Positions 44,171 to 46,065 of a DNA stretch of 64,000 bases are shown here, one piece after another (position 1 is the first letter of the stretch; each line of letters starts with the position of its first letter). Source of the stretch: Verrucomicrobium sp. GAS474. Lineage in GTDB: Bacteria; Verrucomicrobiota; Verrucomicrobiia; Methylacidiphilales; GAS474. The DNA is taken from assembly GCF_900105685.1 (NCBI RefSeq), contig NZ_LT629781.1, positions 2,108,001-2,172,000 of the forward strand. Reading direction: 5' to 3'. The notes beneath the pieces are model-generated. The model was given only the letters and a program-made list of their open reading frames with translations, was not told the origin of the DNA and did no database searches. Position numbers and translations under genes: made by a program.

Positions 44171-45052
44171 ATGAGCAAGAAAACGTCCTCCCCCAGCCGC
44201 GCCACGGTGCGCGTCCCCGCGACCTCGGCCAACCTCGGCCCGGGCTTCGACACGATGGGCGTCGCCCTCAAGATCTACAACACGGTGACGGTGCGCCGGA
44301 CCGAGGAATCGGTGACGGCGAGCGGGATGACGGCCGAGACGACCATCGCCTTCTTCGACCAGACGGGCATCGATCCCTTTTCCTTCAAGGCGGACATCGC
44401 CGGGCAGGTGCCGCCCGCCCGGGGCCTCGGCAGCAGCGTCACGGTCCGCCTCGGCCTCGTCGCCGGCCTCAACGCGCTGGCCGGGGAACCCCTCGATCCC
44501 GAGGAGGTCCTGGCCCTGGTCGTCGACCTCGAAGGCCATCCGGACAACGCCGTCTCGGCCTTCCACGGCGGCTTCGCGACCTGCACGCCCGACCGCTTCT
44601 ATCGGACCGAGGTCGGCTCCTCCCTGAAGTTCGTCGGCCTCGTCCCCGAGTTCGAGCTGGAGACGAAGAAGGCGCGCGCCGTCCTGCCGAAGAAGGTCGC
44701 CCTCGCCGACGCCATCGCGAATCTCCAATACGCCTCGCTGATCGCCGTCGCCTTCGCCCAGAAGGATTATGCGAAGCTCGACGGCCTCTTCCAGGATCGG
44801 TGGCACCAGCCGTTCCGCTCCCCCCTCATCCCGTGCTGGGAACCGGTGAAGGCGGCGGCGGAGAAGGCCGGGGCGCTCGGCTTCTACCTGAGCGGCGCCG
44901 GATCGACGCTGATGGCCCTCGTCCACGGCAGCGAGGCGGCGGCCGAGGCCGTCGCGGAGAAGATGGAAGCCGCCGCGAAGAAGGCGAAGGTTCCCGCGAA
45001 TGCCTTCGTGACGACGGCCGACAACGCCGGGTGCAGGATCACTGTCGCGTAG
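44171..45052 (+). CDS. thrB: Homoserine kinase
   Basis: A 293-residue GHMP-family kinase phosphorylating homoserine on the way to threonine. N-terminal RVPATSANLGPGFDTMGVAL and the ATP loop RGLGSSVTVRLGLVAGLNAL are diagnostic; GFYLSGAGSTLMAL is the third GHMP motif. The reading frame ends in GCRITVA then TAG. The last two bases of the stop codon come from the inserted palindromic element that follows, so its original stop was probably TAA. No thrA, thrC or hom nearby. Confidence 0.93.
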   Translation: MSKKTSSPSRATVRVPATSANLGPGFDTMGVALKIYNTVTVRRTEESVTASGMTAETTIAFFDQTGIDPFSFKADIAGQVPPARGLGSSVTVRLGLVAGLNALAGEPLDPEEVLALVVDLEGHPDNAVSAFHGGFATCTPDRFYRTEVGSSLKFVGLVPEFELETKKARAVLPKKVALADAIANLQYASLIAVAFAQKDYAKLDGLFQDRWHQPFRSPLIPCWEPVKAAAEKAGALGFYLSGAGSTLMALVHGSEAAAEAVAEKMEAAAKKAKVPANAFVTTADNAGCRITVA

Positions 45053-45321
45053 AGCCTGTCCTGCACTTTGGAAAGCCCGCGTTGCTTCTAAAAGGTTCTC
45101 CATCTAGGCGCGAGCGACGCGGTGTGGCCGCAAGCCACTCAAGGAGCGAGCAACGAGGGAGAACCTTTTAGAAGCAACCCTTTGGGCCGGGGTTCTACGA
45201 CCCTTCCCCGTTGTTGTGCAATGCCTTACGTGCCATTCAGGCACGCGACGGCATTGCACGCCTAGGGGAGAGGGGCGCAGCCCCTCCGGCGCGGGCTTTC
45301 CAAAGTGCAGGACAGGCTCTA
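45050..45321. mobile_element. 272-bp MITE-like nested palindromic element
   Basis: Bounded by TA on both sides (45050-45051 and 45320-45321) with 30-bp perfect terminal inverted repeats starting GAGCCTGTCCTGCACTTTGG (45052-45081 with 45290-45319). Inside are a 21-bp perfect stem (45081-45101 / 45158-45178, GTTGCTTCTAAAAGG...) and a second arm (GTGCAATGCC, 45216-45225, with GGCATTGCAC, 45250-45259) holding an inner CGTGCC-attca-GGCACG. A small GGGGC-gca-GCCCC hairpin lies near 45272-45284. No coding capacity. The TA flanks fit target duplication by an IS630/mariner-type transposase, so this looks like a MITE. No source transposon is in the window. Confidence 0.75.
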
Positions 45322-45387: not shown

Positions 45388-46065
45388 ATGGCCTCCGCAC
45401 GTACTGAAAGTTTCAAGATCCTCATTCCGCTCGGCATCGCGATCCTCCTCGCGCTCTTTTTCCTGCACGGCCTTTGGGCGGGGATCGTCGGCGGGCTGCT
45501 GATCGGGCTCTTCGTTTTCTGCCTCAATTTCTTCCGCGATCCCGAGCGGACGGCCCCGGACGATCCCGCGCTGATGATTTCGAGCGCCGACGGCGTGGTG
45601 ACCCACGTCGAGGTCGTCGAGGAGTCGCCCTTCGGCCTCGGCAAGATGAAGCGGATTTCGGTTTTCCTCAACGTCTTCGACGTCCACGTGAACCGCACCT
45701 TTTACGGCGGGACGATCGTCGACCGGGTCCACGTCCCGGGGAAGTTCCTCGATGCGCGCCACCCGACGTGCCACGTCGAGAACGAGCGGATGGACTGGCA
45801 CCTCCAGACCGAGCACGGCCCGATCGTCCTCCGCCAGATCGCCGGGCTGATCGCCCGCCGGATCGTCGGCTGGGCCGAGAAGGGGCAGGAGGTCGTTCGC
45901 GGCGAGCGGATCGGGATGATCCGCTTCGGTTCCCGCACCGATCTCTTCATGCCGCTCCATTGCGAGGTCTTGGTGAAGGTCGGCGAACGGGTGAAGGGCG
46001 GCGAGACGCCGCTCGCCCGCTGGACGCCTTCCAACTTCGACCAGATGTTCAAGGAGCAGGCTTAG
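45388..46065 (+). CDS. psd: Phosphatidylserine decarboxylase proenzyme (short type)
   Basis: A 225-residue membrane-associated enzyme making phosphatidylethanolamine from phosphatidylserine. Two N-terminal membrane helices (about 10-48) are followed by NFFRDPERTAP, SSADGVV, FLNVFDVHVNRTFYGG and the self-cleavage site IRFGSRTDLF, where Gly181-Ser182 would split to create the pyruvoyl group. This is the short archaetidyl/type-II form lacking the E. coli extension. It runs into pssA after 17 bp, giving the usual PE pathway pair in one transcript. Confidence 0.93.
   Translation: MASARTESFKILIPLGIAILLALFFLHGLWAGIVGGLLIGLFVFCLNFFRDPERTAPDDPALMISSADGVVTHVEVVEESPFGLGKMKRISVFLNVFDVHVNRTFYGGTIVDRVHVPGKFLDARHPTCHVENERMDWHLQTEHGPIVLRQIAGLIARRIVGWAEKGQEVVRGERIGMIRFGSRTDLFMPLHCEVLVKVGERVKGGETPLARWTPSNFDQMFKEQA

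Follow-up and report, generated by a model that had tools for sequence, protein, structure and literature searches.

Introduction

Bacterial non-autonomous DNA elements (MITEs), their TA ends and their folds are reviewed in PMC2229807 and PMC10969869, and the available sections of these two reviews describe no three-armed family like the one treated here, ISfinder and the subscription literature lying outside the scope of the comparison. Verrucomicrobia find no mention in the available text of PMC10969869, and searching the literature for the motif strings of the element gave, among the matches listed, off-topic studies only. As presented in the available part of PMC2229807, the ERIC/IRU and Correia/NEMIS repeats are like our element (hereafter the Y element) in being small, non-coding and multi-copy, in their TA termini and strongly folding transcripts, and in a mobiliser that is unseen or acts in trans. 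They are armless long stem loops of 107-155 bp (the ERIC/IRU consensus has 127 bp), whereas the Y element has 268 bp, three arms, 25 end types and a phylum-wide range; these differences set it apart at the level of description. The same part of that review presents the pneumococcal RUP, with IS630-Spn1, as a MITE that targets TA and has ends in common with a complete insertion sequence (IS), in which it is like the Y element, but the family is IS630 instead of IS5 and no conserved covarying core is described there. CIR of Caulobacter and Brucella, from the same pages of PMC2229807, shares the two hairpin arms and the linker; it is described without terminal inverted repeats and hence without an outer stem, both of which the Y element has. 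The GTAG REPs of Opitutus and others, which supply stop codons also in a Verrucomicrobium relative, are palindromic and their ends often provide the TAG stop of neighbouring genes, like those of the Y element, but they are 20-40 bp long, go with Y1 transposases and have no terminal inverted repeats with TA duplication (PMC3733652). IS5-family ISs (NF033580, DUF4096 + DDE_Tnp_1) are alike in end sequence and in their TA/YTAR target; they carry a transposase and the Y element none, and the IS copies that we inspected contained no Y core.

Here we analysed a window of 64,000 nucleotides of Verrucomicrobium sp. GAS474 (NZ_LT629781.1). We consider it probable, at roughly 80%, that the element between thrB and psd is a MITE of a Verrucomicrobiota-wide family that is mobilised by IS5-type transposases and whose core takes exchangeable ends.

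Results and discussion

A three-armed palindrome at the thrB–psd junction

The GHMP kinase gene thrB (44171-45052) ends in a TAG made of the flanking TA and the first G of the element, and psd starts beyond it, at 45388 (Table 1). The first-pass annotation had described a 272-bp unit (45050-45321) with perfect terminal inverted repeats flanked by TA, two large internal stems, the ability to fold on either strand, and a thrB stop created at the junction. Its location was right, the element proper being 268 bp with a TA on each side, and the structural claims were borne out. A repeat search gave outer arms at 45050-45081 and 45290-45321 (32 nt, 100% complementary, that is, the 30 bp repeat plus TA) and internal pairs at 45081-45104/45155-45178 (24 nt, 96% complementary) and 45195-45225/45250-45280 (31 nt, 74%). 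The RNA of the two strands folds at -183 and -191 kcal/mol, with z scores of -15.6 and -14.7 against shuffles, and the DNA fold has a z score of -16. The 20-nt end of the element occurs twice in the window, with 0.00 occurrences expected by chance. Within the element we found neither a promoter-like site nor an intrinsic terminator (GC stem plus T-run), and the earlier proposal that its hairpin isolates thrB from psd loses its footing, as no T-run or terminator-like site is present.

Table 1. Coordinates of the Y element and its parts in the window
Feature	Position	Strand	Remarks
Whole element, Y-shaped palindromic MITE	45052..45319	.	268 bp; repeats, copies, fold, model match
Left flanking TA (target dinucleotide)	45050..45051	.	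first two bases of thrB stop TAG 45050-45052
Left terminal inverted repeat GAGCCTGTCCTGCACTTTGGAAAGCC (exchangeable, IS5-like)	45052..45077	+	
Right terminal inverted repeat	45294..45319	-	perfect reverse complement of left repeat
Conserved core (CGCGTTGC ... CCGGCGCG)	45078..45293	.	common to elements with differing ends
Hairpin A + linker	45078..45190	+	covariance model R1, 112 bits (copy in training set)
Internal-loop motif CTAGGCGCGAG in hairpin A	45104-45114		
Internal-loop motif GCGAGCAACGAG in hairpin A	45146-45157		
Linker GCAACCCTTTGGGCCGG common to both hairpins	45174..45190	+	
Hairpin B + linker, inverted relative of hairpin A	45174..45293	-	R1 on opposite strand, 44 bits; not in training set
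Right flanking TA	45320..45321	.	with A45322 gives TAA 45320-45322, inferred original thrB stop

Copies in the genome and an empty junction

The source genome (G000; complete, one contig, 3.76 Mb) holds 9 full copies of the element and several shortened ones at unrelated sites, in line with the first reading of the unit as mobile and TA-flanked; these numbers come from searches only and may be an undercount. Four full-length elements have window-type ends, as do some partial ones, and 5 have other ends, so that some matches to the window element share its interior while their ends are unrelated. The copies L001 and L002 are 95% identical and L003 and L004 97.5%, with flanks at ~50%, the background level, and these copies must therefore have moved, L003 and L004 recently. 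The congener G001 has no element at the junction: its thrB has a TAA stop, with the start of psd 31 nt downstream. This provides the empty-site relative that had been sought and, together with the TAA at the right flank, agrees with the claim that removing the element restores TAA; the thrB of G001 is only 62% identical to that of the window, so that the element may conceivably have been lost in its lineage. The pre-insertion thrB allele of the source species would have read ...GTCGCGTAATTGTC... with a single TA. A TA stands on both sides of 13 of 20 elements of the genus, and equal flanking TA is found in only 22 of 71 elements overall. Short and non-coding, carrying no transposase, with 26-bp terminal repeats, a target duplication and multiple copies, the element has what defines a MITE.

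In the draft genome of the congener G002 many Y elements lie at contig ends (C332, C112, C251, C484, C41), and they therefore probably break assemblies and are undercounted. One copy of the source genome (L032, G000:C1:2670752-2671021) directly follows the apparent T-run of the terminator hairpin that belongs to a neighbouring gene.

A covarying core conserved across the phylum

Compensatory changes were found in 24 of 34 pairs when 16 hairpin-A regions were aligned. We built a covariance model (R1) from half of the element, hairpin A with the linker. Its matches to hairpin A and to hairpin B fall on opposite strands and overlap at the linker, and the element therefore contains one hairpin module twice, in inverted orientation, enclosed by a third stem. 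The 72 elements collected are mostly 268-281 bp long, with a core of ~216-226 bp that consists of the two inverted hairpins around the short linker. R1 has 19 matches in the source genome (often at least two per element), 5 in G001, 27 in G002 and 34 in G045, and under strict filters it matched 16 genomes of 14 genera among 388 sampled genomes of the phylum, which we take to be the Verrucomicrobiota, as it is there that the best thrB relatives with a name belong. When 50 named genomes were scanned, matches appeared in six Verrucomicrobia-type MAGs and one Omnitrophota genome, and none in the sampled Firmicutes, cyanobacteria, Chloroflexi, Gemmatimonadetes and Latescibacterota; plasmid and phage records gave no blastn match to the element.

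In the 150 R1 matches 92.7% of cells are paired and 33 of the 34 pairs change on both sides, with a covariation score of 0.737 compared with 0.188 after shuffling and at most 0.131 after sliding; the size of this score is inflated because the alignment was fitted to R1, and both controls are still far lower. Sequence conservation extends to the unpaired motifs CAAGGCGCGAG and GAGCAACGC but not to the stems. The element is of a known kind, a MITE, but its core is unusually conserved and covarying; the conservation of the nested palindromes as a structure throughout the phylum and the exchangeability of the ends are features that the first-pass annotation had missed.

Palindromes are corrected by a well-established mutational process, in which replication switches templates at hairpins, and the arms within one element are indeed far more alike than the arms of other copies. 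It is nonetheless unlikely that the perfect stems come merely from such correction, a reading compatible with a MITE, since the unpaired loops CAAGGCGCGAG / CGAGCAACGC persist across genera, where correction would erase them, and since length is held within the narrow range given above. We regard it as rather improbable, too, that the core is a structured RNA (an attenuator, an mRNA stabiliser or a small RNA) needed at the 3' ends of genes, which would likewise be compatible with a MITE. The strong covariation and the position of the elements at gene ends would suit such an RNA, and in the stems of hairpin A G-T mismatches outnumber A-C mismatches by 69 to 20 (A strand), which fits RNA or single-stranded DNA and hints at a function of the single strand. 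Hairpin B, however, has no G-T bias (30 to 24) and that of the outer stem is slight (48 to 36); the counts depend on the model and on sequences related by descent, and the elements occur in both orientations relative to the flanking gene, with no Rfam family and no terminator signal.

No element matched Rfam over the gathering score, save for a separate Acido-Lenti-1 hairpin in L171, which we rejected as a part of the Y element because it is a separate repeat. At that locus (L171:2574-2741, in G284) an inverted pair of Acido-Lenti-1 (RF01687) hairpins stands ~80 nt apart, which suggests that the Rfam 'sRNA' in its turn belongs to a palindromic repeat.

Exchangeable ends resembling IS5 termini

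The ends of the elements are ~26 bp long, complementary to each other and different between subfamilies. Among the 72 elements we distinguished 25 end types that are less than 60% identical to one another, and each end pairs at 77-100% with the opposite end of its element; a few of these are register variants of one type, and the true number is somewhat lower. The clearest case lies within the complete source genome, where L005 and L003/L004 have cores that are 99.1% identical and ends that are only 35-38% identical on both sides, the switch falling exactly at CGCG. Near-identical cores with unrelated ends indicate that the core can exchange its ends. We did not count L176/L234, L190/L234 and the pairs with L229, in which the appearance of end exchange is due to a shifted register.

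In sequence, the ends resemble the termini of IS5-family ISs. The congener G002 holds an 883-bp IS with an IS5-family transposase in two frames (L268; IS5_3/DUF4096/DDE_Tnp_1), whose NF033580 score is below the full-length cut-off because each frame is partial, and its end TTA-GAAGCTGTGAAAAAAGTC can be set against GAAGCTGTGAAAGAAGTAGG of the Y element L211 in the same genome. The window-type end resembles that of the IS5-type elements of G242 (TAGAGCGTGTTATGAACTTTGA), in which a transposase ORF begins ~60 bp inside; the match is 16/20 at best for the window family and 15/20 for the window copy, and G242 belongs to a different family. The end of L005 resembles an IS5-type element of G438, where an IS5-type ORF adjoins the matching end. 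In all, 11 of 106 end 20-mers (sequences that are not independent of one another) lie within 4 mismatches of TA-preceded sites at 27 transposase loci, against a mean of 0.17 and a maximum of 1 in the shuffled control. Among the 388 genomes the window-type end occurs only in the source genome, G242, G239 and G151, and the reversed-pattern control gave 0. Elements of the IS5 family with such ends insert at TA or YTAR.

Two smaller elements were seen beside these. In G151, a ~147-bp element (L309:1501-1647) has the window-type end TAGAGGCTGTCATGCACTTTGA on both sides and is too short for a Y core; it is a simple MITE that shares its type of end with the window element. In G002, a bare hairpin of ~50 bp (L268:1085-1137; TTA-GAGCCTATCCGAATAACC...GGCTC-TTA), an end-only mini-element, lies directly beside the IS5-family element.

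The search for a transposase that had been proposed along with the search for copies found none, as the profiles DDE_3, DDE_Tnp_1, DDE_Tnp_1_2 and Y1_Tnp have no match in the complete source genome; with no IS630, IS5 or Y1 transposase there, its copies are orphans. IS5-type matches are absent also from the carriers G309, G340 and G213. A candidate partner IS in the same genome is present in G002, for L210/L211, and absent in the source genome, which speaks against mobilisation by IS5 in so far as some copies there are 97.5% identical and no mobiliser is seen. An autonomous partner in the same genome is usual for a MITE, but it is not required, for the partner can be lost. The mobiliser named at first, an IS630/Tc1-mariner transposase (DDE_3) acting in trans on a TA target, now appears very improbable: the TA flanks and target duplication that suggested it are not specific to IS630, DDE_3 is absent from the source genome, the ends are like IS5-family termini beyond chance, and a congener has an IS5-family IS with similar ends. 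A REP/REPIN-like nature, with a Y1 (RAYT) transposase mobilising the element as single-stranded DNA, can practically be dismissed, for although the hairpins have conserved loops and most carriers have Y1_Tnp, it is missing from the source genome and the carrier G384, and the TA flanks and IS5-like terminal inverted repeats do not suit it.

For the IS5-type MITE that we favour, we propose that a transposase of this family (DUF4096 + DDE type, as in G002 and G242) would recognise the ends, to judge from their sequence, and insert the unit at YTAR sites with a 2-bp duplication of TA. Once the local IS5 element is lost, the copies would be orphaned, as in the source genome, and the core may outlive the loss by exchanging both of its ends at once for those of other IS5 elements, perhaps via recombination at the CGCG core boundary followed by template switching from arm to arm. 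We hypothesise, tentatively and with the odds somewhat against it, that the Y core is an entity of its own, a structured DNA or RNA module that is selected for its fold and loop motifs and has lasted across a phylum by wearing the ends of any IS5-family element active at the time. If so, the mobile lineage would be defined by its core and not by its transposase-binding ends, and the fold would serve the transposition cycle or the host in ways in which ordinary MITE interiors do not. MITEs are usually regarded as short-lived deletion relics tied to one IS, and here structure maintains one interior across a large part of a phylum, with changing ends. As this change of ends is seen with a 99% identical interior inside one genome, what such interiors do and how ends are swapped become questions that can be asked.

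Stop codons as landing sites

The boundary TA is part of the stop codon of a neighbouring gene in 11 of 23 elements of the genus, on both sides in one of them, and several further elements lie within 10 nt of a stop. Because antisense open frames in GC-rich DNA confound such counts, we based them on a codon model whose training set was frames rich in GC at the third position. Reconstruction of the targets gave CTAG in 6 cases, CTAA in 3, and four others. Only 7 of the 82 YTAR sites of the window are coding, and 22 of the 75 non-coding ones (29%) are stop codons. Against all TA sites the 11 of 23 are clearly enriched (binomial p 0.0002), but against non-coding YTAR sites barely so (binomial p 0.047, Fisher p 0.084), and therefore the choice of YTAR-type targets, together with the loss of harmful insertions, mainly accounts for the siting. 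This gives a quantitative account of elements on stops in this GC-rich genome: coding DNA seldom contains the target motif, and outside coding DNA almost one in three of the motif's occurrences is a stop codon. The regeneration of the stop takes no special mechanism, because the target is TA and the element starts with G or A; a stop-codon target would keep TAG or TAA, and such insertions would thus be nearly neutral and persist.

The element at L147:1473-1748 in G001 lies between two convergent genes, and its two boundary TAs make both of their TAG stops. A viral contig (IMGVR_UViG_3300022695_000189) carries two Y elements, L196:3119-3386 and L197:5233-5499, whose outer repeat holds GGAGG...ATG; the ORF of the next gene begins within the end of the element, which seems to supply it with a ribosome site and a start codon.
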